Shown here: piece after piece, positions 4,143 to 54,885 of the stretch
Layout of the letters: each line of letters begins with the position of its first letter
Position numbering within the stretch: the stretch's first letter is position 1
From: Litorilituus sediminis
Lineage (GTDB): Bacteria; Pseudomonadota; Gammaproteobacteria; Enterobacterales; Alteromonadaceae
Assembly (NCBI RefSeq): GCF_004295665.1
Contig: NZ_CP034759.1
Span: forward strand, 62,001 to 126,000
Length of the DNA: 64,000 bases
Reading direction: 5' to 3'
Notes under the pieces: generated by a model
What the model saw: the letters and a program-made list of their open reading frames with translations, nothing else
The model's database searches: none
Told to the model about the DNA's origin: nothing
Program-made: the position numbers and the translations under genes

Positions 4143-4985
4143 TTAATTTCTCACGTAAGGAAACAGCATTAGGGCATCTTGAATAAGTGTGGTTTTATGA
4201 CTTTTTGCCAAATAAATAGCGTAAATATCACGTCCGTACTCTGGCGCTCCTACAACTGGGTGTAGCTTGCCTTTTCTAATATGCTCAAAGCTCATTTGCC
4301 TGGGCAAATAGGCACAGCCTGATGCTTCTAGAATAAAATTTAGCGCTATTCTCGGTTGGCTCATATTATGGCGAATGGCATTGCTTTCCCTGTGAGCTCG
4401 CATAATTTGACTATTCACTGATTCGCCATAGTCAACCATCACCATATTATTTACTTGGTGCAGTGCTAAATCTTTTTCTGTAGAGACAAGCTGTAAAGGA
4501 ACTGTGGCCACTTTCTCACTGATGATGTCTTCAATAAAGGGCGGCTCAAACAAAAAAGCAATATCAACCATACGGCTGATCACTTGTTTTCGTAACTCTA
4601 AAGGTGAGTAGGTTTGTGTGTACAGGTGGACATCGTCTAAGTTGCGATGTATTTTTTGCAGCCAATCTTGTAATACTATGTCCCAGATTGACATCATTGA
4701 ACCAACAAATAACTGTGATGAGCTGGACTCAGCAATGCCGACATCTTGCTTGAGTTTTTGCCACATGATGATCATTTCATTGGCATGCTTGACTAGTCTG
4801 TGGCCTTCAGCGGTTAGTTTTAAACGTTTTTGCGTGCGATCGAATAGCAAAACCCCTAATTCTTCTTCCAATTGCTTGATTCTGCTGCTGATAGCCGCTT
4901 GAGTTAGATACAAGTTTTCTGCCGCCACTCTAACATGCAGCGTTTGGCTAACCTCTAAAAAGGTGGTAAGCAACTCAATCTTCAT
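4143..4985 (-). CDS. LysR-family transcriptional regulator, HdfR-like
   Basis: 280-residue LysR-type regulator. The N-terminal winged helix (about 1-60) reads MKIELLTTFLEVSQTLHVRVAAENLYLTQAAISSRIKQLEEELG; the recognition helix is LTQAAISSRIKQLE. A LysR effector-binding domain follows at about 90-280. The opening residues resemble HdfR of enterobacteria, so it is called HdfR-like rather than orthologous. It is transcribed divergently from rimK across a 132-bp AT-rich gap. LysR proteins often control the divergent neighbour, so this one may regulate the rimK operon; no T-N11-A box was assigned with confidence. Confidence 0.9.
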   Translation of the reverse strand: MKIELLTTFLEVSQTLHVRVAAENLYLTQAAISSRIKQLEEELGVLLFDRTQKRLKLTAEGHRLVKHANEMIIMWQKLKQDVGIAESSSSQLFVGSMMSIWDIVLQDWLQKIHRNLDDVHLYTQTYSPLELRKQVISRMVDIAFLFEPPFIEDIISEKVATVPLQLVSTEKDLALHQVNNMVMVDYGESVNSQIMRAHRESNAIRHNMSQPRIALNFILEASGCAYLPRQMSFEHIRKGKLHPVVGAPEYGRDIYAIYLAKSHKTTLIQDALMLFPYVRN

Positions 4986-5117
4986 ATAATCATTCCTTTA
5001 ATAAAATAATTTTATCAATTAGCTGCTTTTATTTTGATTCTCTTTTTAAAAATTTTCAACTAAATTTAATTACATCAGTAAGCAAAGCGCTTAACGCGCG
5101 TAAGAAGGAATTAAAAC

Positions 5118-6023
5118 ATGAAAATAGCCATTTTATCTCGTAACAAAAATTTATACTCAACTCGCCGCTTAAAAGAAGCGAGCTTAGAACGTGGTCATGA
5201 GGTAGACATTATTGATACCTTGCATTGCTATATGGATATTACCAGCAATCGACCAACGGTACGTTTTCACGGTGAAGAGTTACCTAAATATGATGCCATT
5301 ATTCCTAGAATTGGTGCATCCGTTACCTTTTACGGTACTGCGGTTGCTAGACAATTTGAAATGATGGGCACCTTTAATATTAACGAGTCAGTCGCCATTA
5401 GTCGCTCTCGGGATAAGTTAAGGTCTTTGCAGTTACTATCACGTAAAGGCATTGGGTTGCCGCGTACTGGTTTTGCTAGTAAACCCGACAATATTAAAGA
5501 CTTAATTAAAAATGTTGGTGGGGCGCCACTGGTGATTAAGTTATTAGAGGGGACTCAAGGTATTGGCGTGGTATTGGCTGACACCTCAAAGGCTGCGGAA
5601 AGTATTATTGAAGCCTTTATGGGCTTAAAGGCGAATATTTTAGTGCAAGAATATGTAAAAGAAGCAGGTGGTGCTGATATTCGCTGTTTAGTGGTTGGTG
5701 GCCGTGTTGTTGCAGCAATGAAGCGTCAAGGCGCAGAAGGTGAGTTTAGATCGAATTTACATCGTGGTGGCAGTGCAGAGATAGTGAAGTTAACCAAGGA
5801 AGAGCGCGCTACGGCGGTAAATGCTGCCAAGGTGATGGGATTAAACTTCTGTGGTGTCGATTTATTGCGCTCACACAATGGTCCTATGGTGATGGAAGTT
5901 AATTCATCACCTGGGTTAGAAGGTATTGAAACAGCAACGGGTTTAGATGTTGCTGGCAAAGTAATTGAGTTTTTGGAAAAGAATGCCAAGTTCAATGCCA
6001 CTAAGACCAAAGGGCAAGGCTAA
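5118..6023 (+). CDS. rimK: RimK-family L-glutamate ligase (ribosomal protein S6 modification)
   Basis: ATP-grasp ligase that adds glutamate to the C terminus of ribosomal protein S6; E. coli RimK can also make poly-alpha-glutamate. The protein is 301 residues, the usual length. Its N-terminal pre-ATP-grasp domain starts [21 protein letters not shown]. The ATP-grasp part has [15 protein letters not shown] and [17 protein letters not shown], and the metal-binding end [26 protein letters not shown]. The ATG at 5118 has aaggaa 10 bases upstream. It heads a tight run of same-strand genes: a deacylase, a RimB-like protease, MscS and ZntB. Confidence 0.94.
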
Positions 6024-6045
6024 TTGAGCTTGATTAGGAGTGACA

Positions 6046-7080
6046 ATGGATAGCTTAAAAATTGGCGAGCATGTTGTTTTGCCAGGGCAAACTAAAAAAA
6101 TAGATTTACCTGTTGCTAAGCTTTATACCGATGCTGATGTAAACTTGCCTGTTTATATTATTCGGGGCAAAAAGCCAGGGTGTACTATTTTTGTTAGTGC
6201 TGCGGTACATGGCGACGAGCTTAATGGCATTGAAATTATTCGCCGTTTAATTAACTTAAAGGGTTTTAAAATTTCAGCTGGTACCCTTATTGCTGTGCCT
6301 ATGGTTAATGTTTATGGTGTGGTTAATCAAAGCCGCTATATGCCAGATAGACGAGATTTAAACCGCAGCTTTCCCGGCTCGTCTAAAGGCTCATTAGCGG
6401 CACGTGTAGCGAATATCTTTTTGCAAGAAATTGTTAGCCATTGTGACTATGGTATCGATTTACATACTGGTGCTGTGCATCGCTCTAATTTACCGCAAAT
6501 TAGAGCGCATTTAGCCGATGAGCAAACTTTAGCACTGGCAAAGGCATTTGGTGCCCCGGTAATTTTAAATTCAGATATTATTGAAGGTTCGTTACGTGAT
6601 GCCGCGGTAAACAGTAATACCAAAGTGCTGTTATATGAAGCTGGTGAAGCGCTACGCTTTGATGAGTTTTCTATTCGAGCAGGCATTAAAGGTATTGTTA
6701 ATGTGCTTAAACATTTAAAAATGATGCCCAAAGGCAGAGTGAGTAAAAAGATCACCAGTCAGTTTGTTGCTAACAACAGTGGTTGGGTTAGAGCAACCAG
6801 TAGTGGTATTGTCAGCCATCATTTTGGCCTGGGCGATCAAGTGAAAAAAGGCGAAGTATTAGCCGATATTGGCAGCCCGTATGGTGAATTATTGGGCACT
6901 GTGTTAGCGCATAAAAGTGGCGTGATTATTGGTAAGCAAAATATTCCCTTAGTGCAAGAAGGTGAAGCCATGTATCACATTGCTTATTTTAAAGAAGACG
7001 ATGAAGCCATTGCTGAGCATATTGAGTTGGTTGCAGAAGAACTTGTCAATCGCTTTGAGTCTACAGAGGAGTTATTATGA
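6046..7080 (+). CDS. Succinylglutamate desuccinylase/aspartoacylase-family zinc hydrolase
   Basis: 344-residue zinc carboxypeptidase-like protein of the AstE/AspA family, which removes N-acyl groups from amino acids or small peptides. Zinc ligands are visible in AAVHGDELNGIEIIRR (H and E) and GIDLHTGAVHRSNLP (H). The presumed catalytic Glu is in LLYEAGEALRFDEF. The C-terminal 90 residues form a biotinyl-lipoyl-like barrel (SGIVSHHFGLGDQVKKGEVLADIG). It follows rimK by 22 bases. ATG 6046 has aggag at 6036-6040 and is preferred to GTG 6040. The substrate is unknown; the context suggests a glutamate-containing adduct. It overlaps the next gene by 4 bases (ATGA). Confidence 0.88.
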   Translation: MDSLKIGEHVVLPGQTKKIDLPVAKLYTDADVNLPVYIIRGKKPGCTIFVSAAVHGDELNGIEIIRRLINLKGFKISAGTLIAVPMVNVYGVVNQSRYMPDRRDLNRSFPGSSKGSLAARVANIFLQEIVSHCDYGIDLHTGAVHRSNLPQIRAHLADEQTLALAKAFGAPVILNSDIIEGSLRDAAVNSNTKVLLYEAGEALRFDEFSIRAGIKGIVNVLKHLKMMPKGRVSKKITSQFVANNSGWVRATSSGIVSHHFGLGDQVKKGEVLADIGSPYGELLGTVLAHKSGVIIGKQNIPLVQEGEAMYHIAYFKEDDEAIAEHIELVAEELVNRFESTEELL

Positions 7081-15381: not shown

Positions 15382-17700
15382 TTAGAGGGTAAATTCACTC
15401 ATCTTCTCTTCTAAGTTTTTCACCAGTTGATCAAGGCGTTTTACATCTTCTTTACTTAAATTCGCCTTATCAGAAATATTATGGGAGTTATCAGCAATTT
15501 CAGTAACATTTTTGTTGATATCGTTTACCACCATACTTTGCTGCTCAGAGGCACTGGCAATTTGAATATTCATATCGCTAAGCTGTTCAACAAGGCTTAA
15601 TATATCGGTAATGGTTTGTCGATTTTTCTCACATGAATGAATACTGTGATTAGCTTTTTCACTTGAGGAGGTAACCATTTTCACTGTATTTTGTGTTTCA
15701 TGCTGAAGCGAGTTGATTTTCTTACGAATATCTTCAGTTGATTGCTGAGTTCTACTGGCTAAGGTTCTTACTTCATCAGCGACAACGGCAAAGCCTCTAC
15801 CTTGCTCGCCAGCTCTTGCCGCTTCAATTGCAGCGTTTAACGCTAATAAATTGGTTTGCTCAGCAATAGATTGAATAACATCGAGCACAGAGCCAATGGA
15901 TTGACTCTCTTCTGCTAGCTTGGCAATAGATTGTGAAGCTGAACTCATGGTTGAATTGAGGTCGTTCATATCTTGTTGTAACTCTTCAGCAGAATGATCA
16001 CTGTCTTCACATTTTATATTGGTCTCTTTTACCGTATTAGCTGCATCAGCGGCATTGCGGGCAACTTCTTGAATTGTGGCAAGCAGCTCATTTGTGGCAA
16101 CAGCCATGCTATCAGCATTGTCTGATTGATGTTGAGTTTGCTCTGTGGTTTCGTTCATATTGGTGAGCATGGTTTCTGTTGATTCAAGTAAAGTTTCAGA
16201 GAGTTTTTCAACGGAGTGAAGTATCTCTTGAATATCATTAATGAGCTGATTGAAGGAGTTTGCTAAGCTGTGCAGTTCGTCGCTGCCATTGTATTCTACG
16301 CGGTTGTTTAGATTCTTATCTGCGGTTATTTTGTTTACTTGGCTGATAAAATTATTAATTGGCGTAGAAATACCTTTACCCACCATAAAGCCACAAAGTA
16401 AGGTTATTGGAACAAGGACAAGAATGATGACGCTGATGACAAGCCAAATTCTCGAGAGCATTTCATCTTTATCTTTCATGGCTTCGGCGACATCTATTTC
16501 ACTTAAAATAGCCCAAGTTACGCCATCTATTTTTAATGGTGCAAATGCTGATAAGACATCAACATCACGATAATCCTGTATCGACTTAATGCCTGATTGG
16601 CCACTGATGGCTAGCTTAGCACTTTCGGTTGATACTTTATGAAGGCCAATACCTGAATTGCTAGCGCTAATTTTATCGACAATATGTTTTTCAATACCTG
16701 AGGCGTTAAGTGCGTTAACGTAACCTGCTTTGTCTTCAATTAAAAAGCGACTTTGGCTGCGTAGTAGTAAATCACTACCAACTAGGTAAGTTTCTCCTGA
16801 CTCGCCCAAACCAATATTCTGCCATTGTTCGTTGTAGGTCATTAACGAGTTGATTTTGCCAATGGGCATTTGAAATATAAGCACGCCAATTTTTTTACCT
16901 GCATCTGAGTATATAGGGGAAGAGATAAACGCCGCTGCGGCATCGTAAGAAGGAAAGTAGGGGGAAAAATCAATTAAGAAACTGCTGTTTTTTTCTGTAC
17001 TTTGATTTGCAGCAGCGAATGCTTTGGCAAGTCCAGTATCGCGGTAAGGGCCGCTGATGAGTGATGTGGCAAAGTCTAGCTCTTTAAATACACTATAAAT
17101 AACATAGCCTGTTTCAGGCTCGACTAAGAAAATATCATAAAAACCAAAGGCATCTAAAAATTGGTTTAAGTGCGGATGGTATTTTTTGTGGACTTGGCTA
17201 TAAGTACTGTTGTCGTTGGCATAATTAAGTTTGTTTTTGTTACCCAGAGGGTTGTTATTGCCGCTAATGTAAGCATGTTGAATGGATTTAGAGTTTTGAT
17301 TGAGTTGTTGGAACTTATCGACAGAGCTTATTGTTGATGCAGGGTTTTGCTTTTTGTATTCTTGATCAAATTGCTCTGTATAATATTGCCGTAATTTATC
17401 ATTATTTTGCATTGATGTTTGAGCCTCGTAGTTAAAGTACGTATCATTAAGCTCTTGCATCATATTGATTATCATGCGGTTATTGGAGTAGGTAACCACT
17501 TCATGCTTTAAGGTTAAAAAATAGTTCTCAATTTGTGTTTTTTGAACTTCTCGAATAGCAATTAATTGGCTAAAGGCTCTATTTTCCAAAGCAGTAGCAG
17601 CAATGGAGGATGCTTGCCAGCCTACTAAAGAGCCCGCGGTAATGATACCTATGGCAGAAAGTAATACTGAAGCAAGAATGATCTTATTAGAAATTTTCAT
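15382..17700 (-). CDS. Methyl-accepting chemotaxis protein with periplasmic Cache-type sensor
   Basis: About 772 residues. TM1 lies near 7-30, and a large periplasmic double-Cache-like domain runs to about 415 ([42 protein letters not shown]). TM2 is at about 421-443, HAMP to about 498 and the cytoplasmic signalling coiled coil to the end. The hairpin tip [37 protein letters not shown] is canonical. It senses a small extracellular ligand and controls CheA. The ATG at 17700 is chosen; a GTG three codons earlier is the alternative. No che genes are nearby, so it is an orphan receptor. No C-terminal CheR-tethering pentapeptide is seen. Confidence 0.95.
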
Positions 17701-47043: not shown

Positions 47044-47926
47044 GGGCTGTTGATCTTTCGCGAGTGTTTTTTGAGCGGCATGGTAAAGCGTTATAATTTG
47101 CTTCGCCAAAAGTAAACTAACAACTCAATACCATGCCTAGACTAATGCTAACTGATAAGCGGTGGTTAAAGCTACTTCAAGTAATGAAGAGCACTGGCCG
47201 CATATACAACAAACCAAAACACAGAATGACGTTTGAGGGGATATTATATCGACTGAGAACAGGCATCCCGTGGCGCGATTTACCAACAGAGTTTGGCGGC
47301 TGGAGTAGCATTTATCGTCGCTTTAATTTGTGGTCGAAGAAAGGCTTATTGAATATGCTATTCAATGAGTTAGCCAAACTTTCAGATTATGATTGGGTCT
47401 TTCTTGATGGTTCTATAGTTCGAGCACACCAACACAGTACAGGGGCTGCTACTGACAATTCTGAACAAATAGGAAAAAGTCGAGGGGGAAATTCAACTAA
47501 AATTCACTTGGCAGTGGATAGTGGTGGTTTGCCAATTTGCTTTGAGCTATCAGAAGGTCAACGACACGACATCGTTCATGCAGAAAGTTTGGTAGCGCAG
47601 TTAGATGATGTAAATACCGTAGTTTGTGATAAAGGGTATGACAGTGAGCCATTTCGCAAATTTGTTCGAGAGCTGGGCGGGGTAACGGTTATTGCCAAAC
47701 GTAATTACGGACAAGACATAGATAAAACAAGCATGGATTGGTGCTTATACAAATATCGTCATTTGGTTGAAAATGCATTTGCGAGAATCAAGCATTTTAG
47801 AGCTATTTCAACGAGATATGATAAATTAGGAAGGAATTATGCCAGCATGGTATCGCTGGCATTTATGTTAATGTGGCTACCGATGTACTGCTGAACAAGA
47901 TATGTACAGCAAAGATCAACAACCCC
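47043..47926 (+). mobile_element. IS5-family insertion sequence, complete (about 884 bp)
   Basis: The left end ggggctgttgatctttcg and the right end, read as its complement, ggggttgttgatctttgc form near-perfect terminal inverted repeats. They are flanked on both sides by TA, the target duplication typical of some IS5 subgroups such as IS427-like elements. It contains one intact transposase gene. Preservation of both ends and of the reading frame suggests a recent, possibly active, insertion. Confidence 0.93.
47133..47894 (+). CDS. IS5-family transposase (single ORF, DDE)
   Basis: 253-residue transposase. The N-terminal part MPRLMLTDKRWLKLLQVM and the segment FEGILYRLRTGIPWRDLPTEFGGWSSIYRRF belong to the DUF4096/IS5 type. 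The DDE residues are seen in WVFLDGSIVRAHQHS (D), VVCDKGYDSEPFR (D) and LVENAFARIKHFRAI (E). Many related elements split this gene by a programmed frameshift; here it is one uninterrupted frame. It lies inside the terminal repeats of the element. Confidence 0.95.
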   Translation: MPRLMLTDKRWLKLLQVMKSTGRIYNKPKHRMTFEGILYRLRTGIPWRDLPTEFGGWSSIYRRFNLWSKKGLLNMLFNELAKLSDYDWVFLDGSIVRAHQHSTGAATDNSEQIGKSRGGNSTKIHLAVDSGGLPICFELSEGQRHDIVHAESLVAQLDDVNTVVCDKGYDSEPFRKFVRELGGVTVIAKRNYGQDIDKTSMDWCLYKYRHLVENAFARIKHFRAISTRYDKLGRNYASMVSLAFMLMWLPMYC

Positions 47927-48005: not shown

Positions 48006-48953
48006 CTAACTATTCTTTTTAAATACTAAGTGGGCTGCAATAAGGTCACTAATCGCTGTGCCTACAGATTTAAATACCGTGATTTCCTCATCCGATTGAC
48101 GAAGCAGATCAGGGTTTTTACACATATCAGCTAATTCACCTACGATATCTTTTGCATTAAATACACCTTCTTCAATAGGAATAAGTATTTCTCCGGCCTC
48201 ATTTAAGGTATTGGTTAGGCTATCAACGTATACTCTTGCTTTGGTGATTGTTGTGCTGTCACATTCTCGAGCGTTAGGCATATGGTTACCTAAACAATCA
48301 ACATGAGTGCCAGGGCTTAGTGCTTCACCATTAAATAATGGGCTGTGTGAGCCTGTAGCACAACAGATGATATCGCTACTGGCAACTTCAACATTAACAT
48401 CTTGGCTTACACGAAAGTTAACGGCAGGGTATTTTGTGCTATAGCTTTCAATTAGCTGGGCAACTTTTTCTTGGCTTCGCCCCCAAATAGTTACTTGCTT
48501 GATGTCTCTTACTGATAAATGTGCATCTAATAAATAGCCGGAAAGATTGCCTGTACCAAAAAGCATGAAATTACGGCTATCTGGTTTTGAAAGCAGTTGA
48601 CTTGCTAAAGCGGAAACCGCCGCAGTACGCCAATAGGTAACACTTGTACCATCAACTAATGCTAATGGCTCACCCGTTTCACGCTTAAATAACATGATTT
48701 TAGAAAAAAGCCCTGGAATGTCATGTTTGGCAGCATTGTCGGGAAAATAGGTAAACATTTTGTTGCCAATGACTTCTTCATTCCAAGAAGGAAGCAAAGC
48801 AAAGGCATCATGGTTATCGTCGTTCTCTGGTTCTAATGAAAGTACATTGCGCTGTGGCATATGAAACGGCTTAGCAAAACTCGTTTTTAGTAAGGGGATC
48901 AGCTCGGCAAAGTTAAGGGATTGCTGTACTTGTTCTGTACTGATGATTTTCAT
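48006..48953 (-). CDS. Ornithine cyclodeaminase-family reductase, probable delta1-pyrroline-2-carboxylate reductase
   Basis: 315-residue protein of the ornithine cyclodeaminase/mu-crystallin superfamily. The NAD(P)-binding Rossmann motif is MLFGTGNLSGYLLDAHL, followed by VTIWGRSQEKVAQLIESY. Also present are SDIICCATGSHSPLF, DCLGNHMPNARECDS and a C-terminal VGTAISDLIAAHLV. Bacterial members beside 3-hydroxyproline dehydratase (LhpI type) reduce delta1-pyrroline-2-carboxylate to L-proline. That reading is favoured here because the dehydratase is two genes upstream. It is the last gene of a four-gene minus-strand cluster. Confidence 0.82.
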   Translation of the reverse strand: MKIISTEQVQQSLNFAELIPLLKTSFAKPFHMPQRNVLSLEPENDDNHDAFALLPSWNEEVIGNKMFTYFPDNAAKHDIPGLFSKIMLFKRETGEPLALVDGTSVTYWRTAAVSALASQLLSKPDSRNFMLFGTGNLSGYLLDAHLSVRDIKQVTIWGRSQEKVAQLIESYSTKYPAVNFRVSQDVNVEVASSDIICCATGSHSPLFNGEALSPGTHVDCLGNHMPNARECDSTTITKARVYVDSLTNTLNEAGEILIPIEEGVFNAKDIVGELADMCKNPDLLRQSDEEITVFKSVGTAISDLIAAHLVFKKNS

Positions 48954-48986
48954 GTTGTTCTCTTGTTAACGCTAATTCAACAGCAT

Positions 48987-49019
48987 TAGAGTACAAGGCT
49001 AAGCTTGCCTTGCACTCTA
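48987..49019 (-). other. Intergenic hairpin between the M24 peptidase and reductase genes
   Basis: A 13-bp stem with one mismatch (tagagtacaaggc / gccttgcactcta) and a 7-base loop taagctt; no T-run follows. It may be an mRNA processing or stability element setting the expression ratio of the two genes. Confidence 0.45.
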
Positions 49020-49033
49020 GTACTGCTAAGTCA

Positions 49034-50119
49034 TTATAAAATGATTAACTCTTTTGGTGATTCATTAAGGATTTCAAGACCGTTCTCGGTTAAGACGACA
49101 TCATCTTCAATTCTTACACCACCCCAATCAGGGATATAAATGCCTGGTTCAACGGTAAATACGCAGCCTAGCTCCATTTTATAGTCACAATGTGGACCGA
49201 TAAATGGCCACTCATGCAGCTGCAAGCCAACACCATGGCCTAATCCTTCACCACGATATTTACCATATTCACTAGCAATTAAGATATCGTCAGCAATCTT
49301 TTGCAATGCTTTACCTTCGATACCTTCTTTAATGGCATCAAGTGCTGCTTGTTGAGAATCTTTTACGGTTTGGTAGATAGACTTTTGTTTTTCGTCAGCT
49401 TCAGCAAAGATAAAGGTACGCGTCATATCTGAGCGGTAGCCATTTACCACAGCACCAAAGTCAACCAGAATAAAGTCGCCTCGTTTTAATTTTACTGATG
49501 CCGACGGGATACCATGCGGCATGGCAGCACGAGCACCAAATAATAAAATGGTGGCAAAAGAGAGCTCTTCAGAGCCAAGTTTAGCCATTTGATACTCAAG
49601 TTCGTTAGATAATTCGCGCTCACTAATGCCTTCTTTCACTAAAGGTAGAATATTAGCTAGGGCTTGGTCAGCAATTTTTGCCGCTTGGCGAATCGAGTCA
49701 ATTTCATCTTGGCTTTTAACCATTCTAAAGGTTTCAACAATACCGGTTTTGCCAATAAATTCGCTAATATTGGCTTGTTGTTGGATCTCTGCTTGAATTT
49801 GTTGCCACTGTTCAACGCTGATGTGATCACTTTCAAAGTTTACTTGTTGACAGTTATCTTTTAGCAATAACTCAGCAATTAATGATGCTAAGCTTTGGTT
49901 AGCGCGGTCACGACAAATCACTGTAAATTCAGTTGCTTGTTTTTCGGCTTGCTCAACGTAACGATAATCAGTCAGTAGGTAATTGTTGTGCTCTGTGAAC
50001 ACTAATGTGGCAGCATGACCTGTAAAGCCTGACAAATAGGTGATGTTGATATCACTGAAAATGATCATCGCACTTTGTGACTGAGTGAAGACTTGTTGGC
50101 GTAAGCGATTAAGTTTCAT
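49034..50119 (-). CDS. M24-family Xaa-Pro peptidase
   Basis: 361-residue creatinase-fold metallopeptidase. The N-terminal domain is about 1-125 and the pita-bread catalytic domain about 130-361. All five metal ligands are visible: two Asp in VDFGAVVNGYRSDMTRTF, His in GEGLGHGVGLQLHEWP, Glu in VFTVEPGIYIPDWGG and Glu in VRIEDDVVL. These enzymes cleave before or after proline in short peptides. Between a hydroxyproline dehydratase and the reductase, downstream of a peptide permease, it probably frees proline or hydroxyproline from imported peptides. Confidence 0.9.
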   Translation of the reverse strand: MKLNRLRQQVFTQSQSAMIIFSDINITYLSGFTGHAATLVFTEHNNYLLTDYRYVEQAEKQATEFTVICRDRANQSLASLIAELLLKDNCQQVNFESDHISVEQWQQIQAEIQQQANISEFIGKTGIVETFRMVKSQDEIDSIRQAAKIADQALANILPLVKEGISERELSNELEYQMAKLGSEELSFATILLFGARAAMPHGIPSASVKLKRGDFILVDFGAVVNGYRSDMTRTFIFAEADEKQKSIYQTVKDSQQAALDAIKEGIEGKALQKIADDILIASEYGKYRGEGLGHGVGLQLHEWPFIGPHCDYKMELGCVFTVEPGIYIPDWGGVRIEDDVVLTENGLEILNESPKELIIL

Positions 50120-50140
50120 AGTTACTCTCTTTAAATTCGT

Positions 50141-51208
50141 TTATCTTAATAAAAAACCGTATTTTAGTGGATCAGCTTGGTTGATTAACCATTGTGCTTT
50201 ACCACAAATATGCGCATCGCCTGTGACTTGAGGGATGACAGCATCAAAGCCTGCAAAGTCAAGTTTTTCGATGGCTTTAACATTGAATTGGCTACCTAAA
50301 ATACTTTCTATAATAATGGCTTGCTCTAGCGCCACTTCTTCTTTGGCAACGTGTAAAGCAATGCGGCCACTAACACCACTGCCAGTAGGGCTTCTATCTA
50401 GCTCACCGTCAGCAAAAATACAGACATTACGACTGTGAACATCGGCATTAGGTGATTTATCGATAAAAATAACCCCATATAAAAAGCTTAAATCTTCTTC
50501 TACAGGGTGCTCAATAGCCATTTGATTCATCACAGCGGCTTTAATTTTGCGGCCATAATCAATTAAGGTCTCTTGGTTTTTAGGCTCGAGTGATAAATTG
50601 AGCTTTGCAGCATCAACGTAGGCGTAAAATGCGCCGCCAAAGGCAACATCAAAATCAACCTTGCCAATACCATCAACATCAACACTTTGCTCTTTTGCTA
50701 AAACAAAAGATGGCACACAGTTAAAGGTTACCTGAGTAATAATATTACCTTCTGCAAAGGCTTTGGCAAAAATTTGCCCACAAGGTACATCAATAACAAC
50801 CTCGGTTACTTGACCTGTTTGCTCAACCACACCCGACTCAACAGCACACTTCGCTAGGGCAATTACCGCATGGCCACACATGGTGCTATAGCCTTCGTTG
50901 TGGATAAAAATAGCACCAAAATGGCTATTTTCTCGTTCTGCTTCAGTAATAATCGCGCCATACATATCGGCATGACCGCGTGGTTCAAACATCAGGGCGC
51001 GGCGAAGATCGTCATGGTTTTCCTGACAATCTCTACGTTTTGCTAAAATAGTGTTTCCGGCAAGCTCAGGAAAGCCACTGGTTATAATACGTAAAGGCTC
51101 GCCACCTGTGTGACATTCCAGCGTATTGATAGTTTTATAACTTTCTTGCTCAGTGTTTACTTGCCATTGTTCAAATTGCTTGGCAGGGTTTACTTTTCTA
51201 ATTTGCAT
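50141..51208 (-). CDS. Proline racemase-superfamily enzyme, probable trans-3-hydroxy-L-proline dehydratase
   Basis: 355 residues. Proline racemases and 4-hydroxyproline epimerases use two Cys. Here the first motif keeps Cys (STMCGHAVIALAK, C111) and the second has Thr (DRSPTGSGVSGR, T275). A Cys/Thr pair is the mark of trans-3-hydroxy-L-proline dehydratase, as in the human enzyme, which forms delta-pyrroline-2-carboxylate. The adjacent reductase-family gene would then yield proline. Other segments (NTLECHTGGEPLRII, FGAIFIHNEGYS, FADGELDRSPTG) are standard. The start follows the POT gene by 2 bases. Confidence 0.87.
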   Translation of the reverse strand: MQIRKVNPAKQFEQWQVNTEQESYKTINTLECHTGGEPLRIITSGFPELAGNTILAKRRDCQENHDDLRRALMFEPRGHADMYGAIITEAERENSHFGAIFIHNEGYSTMCGHAVIALAKCAVESGVVEQTGQVTEVVIDVPCGQIFAKAFAEGNIITQVTFNCVPSFVLAKEQSVDVDGIGKVDFDVAFGGAFYAYVDAAKLNLSLEPKNQETLIDYGRKIKAAVMNQMAIEHPVEEDLSFLYGVIFIDKSPNADVHSRNVCIFADGELDRSPTGSGVSGRIALHVAKEEVALEQAIIIESILGSQFNVKAIEKLDFAGFDAVIPQVTGDAHICGKAQWLINQADPLKYGFLLR

Positions 51209-51210
51209 GC

Positions 51211-52980
51211 TTAACTTGCCTCTAACTGTAATTGTTGTTGCTTTTCAATCTCATCAACAAAGTGACGGTTAAATAGATACAAAGCAACACAGGTTACTAG
51301 GCCAAGTAAGGCAATAACAGCCCACATTAGCGCTGGGTTATTTAGGTTGACTGCTAATGAGTCATAAAGCCAACCAGATAGTAAGCCGCCAAATAAGTTA
51401 CCTAATGCCATAGAGACAAAATAGTAACCCATAAACATGGCTGCTTTATCAGCTGGAGCAAATGAAGCAACATACTCTTGACTCTTTGGTGATGCTGTCA
51501 TTTCACCAATAGCAAAAACAATAACTGAGCAGGCCACTAATAAACCGCCAAAGACAACGGCATGACCAGCACTATTCATTAACATAGAGAAAGATAAAAT
51601 GGCTGTACCAGCGATTAGCGTTGGTAATGGCTTAAACTTGTCAATAAAACGGCTAATGACTACTTGGAATAATATGATCATTAAAAAGTCTAGACTTAAA
51701 ATAGTGGCCGGGTTCATTTGTCGATAATCATTCGCCCACTTGCTGGCAAGTTGCTCACTTAATTCTAGGGTTGAGCCTGTTGATTGTTGCACCTGTGCTA
51801 AGGTTTCAAAGCTTTGTTTTAATTCTTGTGCTGGAATACGTACATCAAGCGCTGCTAATGTAGTGGTGATTTCTTTCATCGCCCCTTGTGCTTGCTGTAG
51901 TTCAATGGTGTTGAACTTTTCTGCTAAACGTGCGATTTCACTGGCTAAGGTTTCTAAGTTAACTGCTGTAAATATGTCATGTAACCATGGGCTGATTGAG
52001 TGTAATAGACGCACTAAATCACTGGTATCTACATAATCTCTTACATAAACAGGTAAAGTGATAAAAATTTGTAGGTATACAGTCCAAAAGCCCGTCAAAA
52101 TCAGTAAGTAAGTCATAAATGGCTTATTACCAACACGCATTTTTTGTAGATACCAAGCGGGTGTTTCATTTGCTTTTGTTGGTAGCTTGGCAATAACTAG
52201 GTCCCATAACAGGGCTGAAACAATCAATACTACTGCGATTATTGTTGTTAATTTCCCGCTGGTAATAAAACCTGCGTAGTAAGAGACCAGTAAAATAAGC
52301 AGAGGTACAACAGCAAGTGCTAAACGACCATTACCTAAAACCTGTTGCATCTCTTGAAAAACTTGTTTCAATGATTTGTTTTTGGCTTCTCTGCTTGGTT
52401 CTTTATAGAAGAACAGTGCAGGTATAAAGTTGACAGAAATCCAAATACAGGCAAAAACAAACACCCATTCCCAGCCGTAGTTCTTTTGCACTATGGGTGC
52501 AATTACTGGCCCTAAGAAACCACCAATATTTACCATCATATAGAAAATACCAAAGCCCAAGCCTCGGTTAGTTTCATCGGTTGTTCTACTAATGGTAGCG
52601 GTGACGACAGGTTTAAATATACCTGCGCCTAAGGCGATGAGCATAAAGATACTCATAAAACTGGCTAAATCTTTGGCATAGCCTAATAAATAATAGCTAG
52701 GCGCCATTAAAGCAAAAGATAACAGGAACATTTTTCTATAACCAAATCTATCTGCTAGCGCACCTGAAATAACAGGAAATAGATATAAGAAAAATGGTAC
52801 AACACCCATGATTAAGCCACGCTCTGTGTTGCCTAAACCTAAACCGCCTTGTGTAGCTGGGGTCATAATATAACTTGCTAGTAAGGTGTACATACCGTAC
52901 CAAGCTAAGCGCTCAAATATCTCCATGGTATTGGCGACATAAAAAGCACTCTGAAAAGGAGTTCGTTGAATTTGACTCAT
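51211..52980 (-). CDS. POT/PTR-family proton-dependent oligopeptide transporter
   Basis: 589-residue inner-membrane carrier importing di- and tripeptides with protons. The opening holds the POT motif variant MEIFERLAWYGMYTLLASYI, then GLIMGVVPFFLYLFPVISGALADRFGYRKMFL. About 12 or more membrane segments are predicted. A hydrophilic insert of roughly 90 residues (about 330-425, helical, rich in Leu, Ala, Glu and Gln) interrupts the second half and is unusual for bacterial POTs. It heads the hydroxyproline cluster; operators of the form ATTGTATACAAT lie 36-64 bases upstream. Confidence 0.9.
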   Translation of the reverse strand: MSQIQRTPFQSAFYVANTMEIFERLAWYGMYTLLASYIMTPATQGGLGLGNTERGLIMGVVPFFLYLFPVISGALADRFGYRKMFLLSFALMAPSYYLLGYAKDLASFMSIFMLIALGAGIFKPVVTATISRTTDETNRGLGFGIFYMMVNIGGFLGPVIAPIVQKNYGWEWVFVFACIWISVNFIPALFFYKEPSREAKNKSLKQVFQEMQQVLGNGRLALAVVPLLILLVSYYAGFITSGKLTTIIAVVLIVSALLWDLVIAKLPTKANETPAWYLQKMRVGNKPFMTYLLILTGFWTVYLQIFITLPVYVRDYVDTSDLVRLLHSISPWLHDIFTAVNLETLASEIARLAEKFNTIELQQAQGAMKEITTTLAALDVRIPAQELKQSFETLAQVQQSTGSTLELSEQLASKWANDYRQMNPATILSLDFLMIILFQVVISRFIDKFKPLPTLIAGTAILSFSMLMNSAGHAVVFGGLLVACSVIVFAIGEMTASPKSQEYVASFAPADKAAMFMGYYFVSMALGNLFGGLLSGWLYDSLAVNLNNPALMWAVIALLGLVTCVALYLFNRHFVDEIEKQQQLQLEAS

Positions 52981-53015: not shown

Positions 53016-53044
53016 ATTGTATACAATTTGCGATTGTTTACAAG
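53016..53044 (-). promoter_or_regulatory. Two tandem palindromic operators upstream of the POT gene
   Basis: Perfect 12-bp palindrome ATTGTATACAAT (53016-53027) and an imperfect copy ATTGTTTACAAG (53033-53044), centres 17 bases apart. TTGTATACAA-type sites are typical of GntR/FadR-subfamily regulators. They probably control the whole minus-strand peptide/hydroxyproline cluster. No regulator gene is adjacent. Confidence 0.65.
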
Positions 53045-53245: not shown

Positions 53246-54885
53246 ATGAATAAACAAAGGACATTGCGTTTTCAAATTATATTCCCCATTGCTATGGCTA
53301 TGCTGGTTATTGTCTTGCTGGTGAGTTTCACTACGCCAAGTTTTGTAAAAAGAATAATCCAATCTCAAGTCTCACATAATTCGATTAATGCGCTTCAACA
53401 GATTAAGACCTTACGTGCTTACTACACGCAGCATATTGTCAAGAAGGTACAAGATAATACTGATATGTTGGTAGCCATTGATCACTACAATAAAAGCGAT
53501 ACCATTCCTTTACCTGCGACTATGATTCATGACTTGAGTGAGCTGTTCGATAAAAATGGCAGCCAATTACGTTTATATAGTCATTACCCATTTCCACAAC
53601 GTGAGCAACGCCATTTAGATAAATTTGAAGAAAAAGCTTGGTTTGCATTAAATCAACAACCAGAGAAAGTGATTGAAACTTTAGAAATTCAAGGAGATAA
53701 AAGTCTTTTAAGGTAGCAATCGCGGATCAAATGCAAGTACAAGCTTGTGTTGATTGTCATAATAACCATCCATTAACGCCTAAAGCTGATTGGCAGTTAG
53801 GTGATGTGCGTGGCGTACTTGAAATAAGCACAGATATTACCAAACAAATGGCTTTAGCAGAACAAATTAGTAGTGCTATCGTTATTTTTATTATGTTTGC
53901 TTACGTTTTATTAATGGTGATTTTCTTCTTTGTGACGCGGCGTATTACTAAACACGTAAGCTATATTTCCAAAGCTATGGTTGAATTGGGGGATGGCAAT
54001 GTTGACGCGCAAGTTGATCTGGCTTCATCTACCTTGGAAATAGGGCAAATGGCAAAAGCATTCACCACTTTTAAGCAGGCTTTGTTAAAAACACAGGCAC
54101 TAGAAAAACGCCAGCAATTAATGGAGTCGGAAAAGATTGATGGTTTAGGGCGAATGCTGGCAAGTGTTGCTCATGATGTCAATACGCCGATAAGTATTGG
54201 TATTACTGCGGCGAGTTTAATGTCAGATAAAATAGCGCGTATTGAAGAGCAAATTGCTAAGGGCGAGTTAACTAAATCTGATATGGAAAAATTTATTGCC
54301 AGCGCTACTGAGTCAATGCAAGTTGTCTCAAGTAATCTTGTCTCTGCTGGAAACTTAATTAAGAGCTTTAAACAGGTATCAGTTGATCAAATTAGTGAAG
54401 AGCAGCGTCAGATTGTTTTATCTGAGTACATTAATGAGATAGTGCATAGCTTAAAACCTCGATTAACTCGAGCTAAAGCGACAGTTTTAGTTGACTGTCA
54501 GCAAGATTGTCAGTTTTATACTTACCCAGGTTTGTTATCTCAGGTTGTTTCTAATTTGATCACTAATTCGCTTATACATGGTTTTGGCCAAAAGCCTGGT
54601 GGCAAAATTATTATTACCTTAAATGGCAATGCAGAGGGTAATATTAACATTCACTATCAAGATGATGGCATCGGCATCCCTGTGGAACATCAAGATAAAG
54701 TTATGGAGCCATTTTTTACCACCAAGCGAGAGCAGGGGGGCAGCGGTTTAGGTTTGAGTATTGTTCATACCATAGTAACGCAAAAGTTAGCGGGAAAAAT
54801 TAAGCTGGTTAGTAACCAAGAGCAAGGGGTTATATTTGATATTTGCTTCCCGGCAAAGTGTCCTAGCAAGGAAGCAGAGCCATAA
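53246..54885 (+). pseudogene. Sensor histidine kinase with DUF3365-like heme-motif sensor, split by a frameshift
   Basis: Two frames form one kinase. Frame 1 (53246-53716) has TM1 and most of a DUF3365/Tll0287-like sensor (LSELFDKNGSQLRLYSHYPFP). It stops at TAG 53714-53716. The sequence then continues one base out of phase (VAIADQMQVQACVDCHNNHP, with a CxxCH heme motif) through TM2, HAMP, the H-box SVAHDVNTPIS, N-box NLITNSLIHGF, DDGIGIP and GGSGLGLSIV to 54885. Restoring one G after 53713 would give a protein of about 546 residues. It may be a true lesion, a sequencing error, or yield a separate C-terminal half from ATG 53731 (384 residues). Confidence 0.88.

Follow-up and report, generated by a model that had tools for sequence, protein, structure and literature searches.

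A four-gene unit for predicted hydroxyproline and proline salvage from collagen peptides in Litorilituus sediminis

The window analyzed here is a stretch of 64,000 nucleotides from the genome of Litorilituus sediminis (contig NZ_CP034759.1, positions 62,001–126,000), in which four minus-strand open reading frames (ORFs) lie head to tail at positions 48006–52980. In transcription order, they are predicted to encode a POT-type peptide carrier, a trans-3-hydroxyproline dehydratase (T3HypD), an M24 metallopeptidase, and a delta1-pyrroline-2-carboxylate reductase (P2CR) of the ornithine cyclodeaminase (OCD) family. We consider it probable (about 0.8) that these genes form an operon-like unit within a regulon for hydroxyproline and proline that serves growth on the breakdown products of collagen. 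Judged from sequence, this collagen-peptide reading has good in silico support, and it draws on the gene content, a conserved gene order, a catalytic residue pair, the enrichment of a palindrome, and a link to collagenase genes. The features concerned are the following:

51211–52980, minus strand: predicted POT/MFS-type proton-coupled di/tripeptide carrier, 589 amino acids (PTR2, MFS_1, ExxER motif, Foldseek)
51706–52041, minus strand: insert of the carrier between transmembrane helices (TM) 7 and 8, residues 314–425, all helical in the model (alignment and model)
50141–51208, minus strand: predicted T3HypD of the Cys/Thr type (PF05544; best NCBIfam model T3HypD; Cys/Thr pair)
49034–50119, minus strand: M24 metallopeptidase of the Xaa-Pro aminopeptidase/dipeptidase type (PF00557; motif residues; PDB matches)
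48006–48953, minus strand: predicted P2CR, ornithine cyclodeaminase/mu-crystallin family (NF004793; PDB matches)
53016–53027, no strand assigned: palindrome ATTGTATACAAT, predicted HypR-type operator, 36 bp upstream of the carrier start codon (copies in the genome and in relatives)
53034–53043, no strand assigned: TTGTTTACAA, a one-mismatch neighbor of the palindrome core, possible second operator (position only)

The gaps between the four genes measure 2, 21, and 80 bp in transcription order, and the genes are presumably co-transcribed. A Pfam search of the four ORFs placed all four families above their cut-offs. The first-pass annotation, which was made from the DNA letters and their ORFs, had described the same co-oriented genes; all are present where it had placed them, on the minus strand, with their families confirmed by Pfam.

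The predicted dehydratase matches the Pro_racemase family (PF05544, 349.6 bits against a cut-off of 27) and possesses the catalytic pair C111 (in MCGHAV) and T275 (in SPTGSGV), both of which had been named correctly in the first-pass annotation. The protein was aligned to PDB entry 7qpo, and the SPTG motif lies within the alignment. The Cys/Thr pair of the window's gene is shared by 28 of 29 T3HypD-like relatives, and all 28 genes for the 4-hydroxyproline epimerase HypE (the own gene included once) exhibit a Cys/Cys pair. These counts, like that of gene order given below, consider only ORFs with blastp alignments of more than 280 residues, with a duplicate of the own HypE counted once. The exception among the T3HypD-like genes is a Ser/Cys gene of the proline racemase family (locus L072, 9423–10484, genome G051) that adjoins an FAD oxidase-like gene with two palindromes upstream. 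DapA-like and aldehyde dehydrogenase-like genes are divergent there.

It is very improbable that the Cys/Thr enzyme acts as a proline racemase, as an epimerase, or on another substrate, even though its closest PDB entry, 6r76, is labeled Proline racemase and its score of 397.8 with T3HypD (NF045511) stays below the curated cut-off of 540. T3HypD is still its best NCBIfam model (NF047722 gave 194.9 bits against a cut-off of 550), and in all 23 close relatives a predicted P2CR gene is the second gene after its own. Moreover, racemases that work by 1,1-proton transfer need a second catalytic Cys, according to the accessible parts of PMC4113996 and PMC4364671, and Thr-275 stands where this Cys would be. 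The racemase or epimerase identity was therefore rejected as unlikely. A similar question arises for the reductase, which scores 168.2 bits with OCD_Mu_crystall, above the Pfam cut-off. Published labels would make it an ornithine cyclodeaminase or a pyrroline-5-carboxylate reductase (P5CR), so that the unit would feed proline from ornithine: COG2423 is placed as ornithine cyclodeaminase in HypR regulons (PMC5343134, in the part accessible), and a gene of a Colwellia cluster is labeled P5CR/ornithine cyclodeaminase (PMC7883544, likewise). We hold this to be very improbable. The protein passes the model for the bifunctional pyrroline-2-carboxylate/piperideine-2-carboxylate reductase (NF004793, 408.7 against 322) and remains below every ornithine cyclodeaminase model that it matches in NCBIfam, and these scores led us to reject the ornithine cyclodeaminase identity as unlikely. 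In addition, its top PDB matches are a mu-crystallin-type entry (7rbp) and a named pyrroline-2-carboxylate reductase (6t3e), and the partner dehydratase is encoded in the same run.

The M24 protein comprises an M24 domain (PF00557, 224.4 bits) and a Creatinase_N domain (72 bits), both above the Pfam cut-offs. Residues D220, D231, H295, E324, and E338 are found in the expected motifs, and we take them to be the metal ligands D, D, H, E, and E. The best PDB matches are Xaa-Pro peptidases. Xaa-Pro and Xaa-Hyp peptides are the presumed substrates of this enzyme, just as peptides are for the carrier.

The carrier itself matches MFS_1 (152.7 bits) and PTR2 (PF00854, 59.8 bits against a cut-off of 27). 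An ExxER motif in TM1 together with a conserved Lys and Glu is expected of POT/PTR carriers (PMC4331665, accessible part), and the window's protein resembles these proton-coupled peptide transporters in all three respects and in the overall fold. Glu-20, Glu-23, and Arg-24 of the motif, Lys-123 in predicted TM4, and Glu-493 in predicted TM10 (the last two matched to the POT residues by motif) are invariant in all 15 aligned carrier sequences, the window's included. Foldseek, when run with the carrier model, yielded POT entries as its 32 best matches (best E 9.3e-09; TM-scores by query 0.45–0.57). VIA-align ranked other MFS chains equal to or above POT and did not single POT out; MFS membership is therefore sure, and the POT assignment rests on the motif plus Foldseek.

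In contrast to the POT/PTR transporters described (PMC4331665, accessible part), the carrier possesses ∼100 extra residues between TM7 and TM8 and has no Glu in predicted TM7. In the same review, the TM9–TM10 ectodomain of mammalian members is stated to be absent from bacterial ones. The model (predicted local distance difference test, pLDDT, 68) folds the ∼100 residues into short helices; modeled alone, the insert reaches a pLDDT of 55. It is present in 15 of the 15 aligned sequences and matches no Pfam family above the cut-off. By standard MFS topology, the TM7–TM8 loop presumably faces the periplasm. If the insert does handle substrate, the carrier would be unusually built for a bacterial POT. 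In locus L064 of genome G009 (4899–6713 and 15425–16852), the carrier is broken into two ORFs with three in-frame TAG codons and an aldehyde dehydrogenase into three ORFs, through either decay or assembly error.

The search for T3HypD covered 118 genomes, most of them from the same genus, family, and order. Whereas 42 of them gave some match, many to HypE only, 23 relatives possess a T3HypD that is 64–79% identical (loci L043–L065). All 23 keep the order and orientation of carrier, T3HypD, M24, and P2CR, with the carrier gene cut short by contig ends in two loci (L052 and L056), indicating that the gene order is more than chance. In most of these relatives, genes for HypE and an aldehyde dehydrogenase head the run, joined in several by one for a DapA-like deaminase, and a gene resembling those of D-amino-acid dehydrogenases is divergent from it. 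The genes for 3- and 4-hydroxyproline thereby make up one cluster in most relatives; they are split in the own genome and in at least three others (L043/L073, L044/L075, and L065/L074). With E 1e-40 as the limit, 28 of the 118 genomes have a carrier match, namely the own one, the 23, and G022, G031, G056, and G065. A scan of genome contigs for related loci returned one, from Litorilituus lipolyticus RZ04 (Colwelliaceae), the nearest named relative found.

The palindrome ATTGTATACAAT ties the four genes to other hydroxyproline loci. Six perfect copies are found in the own genome, a single 4.28-Mb contig, and none of the reversed control. Three of the six belong to hydroxyproline loci: one at the four-gene cluster, one between HypE and HypO, and one before the TonB-dependent receptor of the 4-hydroxyproline locus. 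The 23 relative loci contain 34 copies of the 10-base core TTGTATACAA, spread over 21 of them, where a first-order Markov model would predict 1.24; the 19 other palindromes of the same base make-up reach at most 6 occurrences. In 20 of the 23 loci, the distance between the palindrome and the start of the carrier-holding run is −18 to 391 bp; the misses are L052 and L056, where contigs end, and L061.

The GntR-type regulator HypR is described as controlling hypE/O/D/H and, in Alteromonadales, also genes for a TonB receptor, for collagenases and proline (di)peptidases, and for a di/tripeptide permease (PMC5343134, accessible part). At the own 4-hydroxyproline locus, a GntR-family ORF (L039, 7674–8345) adjoins the aldehyde dehydrogenase and HypE genes. 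A GntR gene with hypE and a palindrome common to both own loci are what marks a HypR regulon, and we propose that a GntR regulator of the HypR type may act at ATTGTATACAAT. A SulP-type ORF (named by eye; L039, 5901–7529) adjoins the GntR gene of the 4-hydroxyproline locus, and the same is seen in L067, L069, and L073–L075.

The link to collagen is provided by the M9 collagenases, of which the own genome has eight matches in seven ORFs; one ORF of 2080 residues (L111, 5667–11909) has two separate matches. A site with at most two mismatches to the 12-base palindrome is found within 300 bp upstream of six of the seven M9 ORFs and of 13 of 168 other ORFs (binomial 1.4e-6; Mann-Whitney 7e-4), in a comparison made after the sites had been seen and in which duplicated M9 genes may share upstream sequence. 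With at most one mismatch, the counts are 2 of 7 and 9 of 168 (binomial 0.05). The background excludes the four ORFs already known to have a hydroxyproline palindrome. Of its 22 pieces, 10 (L040–L042 and L104–L110) had been chosen for having the palindrome, and the background is therefore raised, which works against the collagenase link. The palindrome of L107 was left uncounted: an M9 gene follows at 1.6 kb, but a pilin-like ORF comes directly after the site.

Among the 23 relative loci, 8 contain M9 genes (L045, L046, L047, L049, L057, L061, L063, and L065), as found with one M9 query at E 1e-20 and confirmed by Pfam, a search that diverged M9 genes may escape. In L065, the M9 gene follows P2CR by 47 bp on the same strand and is the fifth gene of the run; in L066, which is outside the 23, the palindrome precedes a single run made up of the carrier, P2CR, an M24, and an M9. 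A second type of M24 gene, 26–34% identical to the window's M24, is found in 14 loci (e.g. L045, 4541–6828, and L063, 12825–15220), with a palindrome in front in 10 and an adjoining M9 gene in 5. Collagen scavenging had been put forward in the first-pass annotation; the shared palindrome, the near-matches before own M9 genes, and the M9 genes in or near relative clusters now give this idea a stronger link than it had.

Taken as a route, the unit would work as follows. Secreted M9 collagenases would cut collagen outside the cell, and the TonB-dependent receptor with the same palindrome may carry fragments across the outer membrane. The POT-type carrier would move di- and tripeptides over the inner membrane with protons, and the M24 enzyme would split Xaa-Pro and Xaa-Hyp bonds, freeing Pro and Hyp. 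The Cys/Thr enzyme would dehydrate trans-3-hydroxyproline to pyrroline-2-carboxylate, which the reductase would convert to L-proline, open to oxidation by PutA (present in the own genome). Freed 4-hydroxyproline would enter the separate epimerase pathway, and the expression of the genes would be controlled by the HypR-type GntR regulator at ATTGTATACAAT.

Peptide import, cleavage, and conversion of 3-hydroxyproline to proline, as put forward in the first-pass annotation, fit these results. The idea of a self-standing trans-3-hydroxyproline system does not, as the cluster appears to be one unit of a wider hydroxyproline/proline regulon; in G022 and G031, both draft assemblies, the carrier lies on the HypE contig and no T3HypD was found. 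The same two genomes favor a broader purpose, to which we would give somewhat less than even odds: the carrier and the peptidase would serve Xaa-Pro and Xaa-4-hydroxyproline peptides of any protein, and the dehydratase–reductase pair would be a minor add-on for the rare 3-hydroxyproline. In line with such general scavenging, G065 has the carrier, P2CR, an M24, and an M9 in one run with T3HypD elsewhere in the locus, and in G050, G063, and G109, the partners of T3HypD are HypO and HypE, and the 20-kb locus lacks a carrier gene. However, the recurrent collagenase genes and the near-palindromes before collagenase genes point to collagen rather than to proteins at large.

Further observations weigh against a unit of a collagen regulon. 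The carrier stays under the TIGR00924 cut-off (110.9 against 130.2), as the dehydratase does under its own curated one, and both names are therefore best-match predictions; the M24 protein is below every NCBIfam peptidase equivalog that it matches. No link is evident for three of the six perfect palindromes, whose neighbors are nqrA-, nirB-, and trp-type genes (named by eye). Reading the surroundings of these three and of seven further 10-base copies in the own genome revealed no hydroxyproline gene, and all are treated as unexplained or chance. No collagenase is found in the 64-kb window, in its cluster, or in the own 4-hydroxyproline locus, and the collagenase comparison was post hoc. The own-genome orthologue (65%) of the second M24 type has no palindrome within the stretch read and no M9 match nearby. 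Finally, no close HypD was found in the own genome. Its DapA-like ORFs that were read (a third, partial DHDPS match lies outside this comparison) score over the dapA cut-off and are less than 24% identical to the HypD of relatives, and the 4-hydroxyproline route of the own genome may therefore be incomplete.

The collagen reading places the four genes in a type of system that is not new, since a collagen/hydroxyproline gene programme has already been described in relatives (accessible parts of PMC5343134 and PMC7883544). The union with a peptide carrier and a prolyl peptidase, singled out beforehand as the interesting part, is thus already in print in these papers. The HypR regulon of Proteobacteria is alike in its hypE/O/D/H core, its TonB receptor, its collagenases, and the proline (di)peptidases PrdP/AmpP/YpdF and the permease PdtP predicted in Alteromonadales; a trans-3-hydroxyproline branch is not mentioned in section 11 of that account, and COG2423 is read there as ornithine degradation (PMC5343134). 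The 21-kb collagen cluster of Colwellia, a member of the same family, comprises an M9 collagenase, an MFS transporter, a TonB receptor, a YpdF-type aminopeptidase, an epimerase, an OCD-family gene, and hydroxyproline catabolic genes, all with likenesses here (PMC7883544, accessible part). It was found in MAG BB5 and is conserved in two others, C. piezophila and C. psychrerythraea GAB14E. Unlike in that cluster, the four-gene unit is separate from the own 4-hydroxyproline locus and from the collagenase genes. The OCD gene is called P5CR/ornithine cyclodeaminase there, and the terms "dehydratase" and "trans-3" are absent from the main text of PMC7883544.

The pathway of T3HypD and pyrroline-2-carboxylate reductase is likewise known, with the same pairing of a Cys/Thr enzyme of the proline racemase superfamily (PRS) and an OCD-family reductase (PMC4113996 and PMC4364671, accessible parts). 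In Bacilli, the PRS genes assigned as T3HypD neighbor OCD-family reductases, transporters, and peptidases (PMC4113996, accessible part). The transporters named in the accessible parts of both papers are of the TRAP and ABC types, whereas that of the window is a POT. Among the papers listed in searches of the open-access literature, none joins a trans-3-hydroxyproline dehydratase with a POT carrier and a prolyl peptidase. The present analysis adds the 3-hydroxyproline assignment of two enzymes that are assigned otherwise in the accessible parts of PMC5343134 and PMC7883544, a likely correction of two gene names, and also the carrier insert, which matches no Pfam family above the cut-off. It suggests that, in the hydroxyproline regulons of this family, a second "epimerase" and the genes labeled ornithine cyclodeaminase/P5C reductase make up a trans-3-hydroxyproline branch. 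Marine organic nitrogen includes a large pool of collagen, and such clusters tell which bacteria can use it to the last imino acid.

A more specific idea, which we regard as doubtful, is that the carriers form a clade of POT proteins that gained the helical TM7–TM8 domain (expected to be periplasmic) and became specialized for collagen-derived Pro/Hyp peptides delivered by the co-regulated TonB receptor. Their partner would then be a salvage branch for 3-hydroxyproline that has gone unrecognized in marine collagen clusters under the names "epimerase" and "ornithine cyclodeaminase".

Around the four genes, an ORF for a transposase of the IS4/5 family (window positions 47133–47894, plus strand) is convergent with the cluster and ends 111 bp from its 3′ end. 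On the other side (53246–54885, plus strand), two ORFs in different frames each hold part of a Tll0287-like domain; the second also contains HAMP and histidine kinase domains, and the pair resembles a single gene for a sensor kinase in which the frame has changed.

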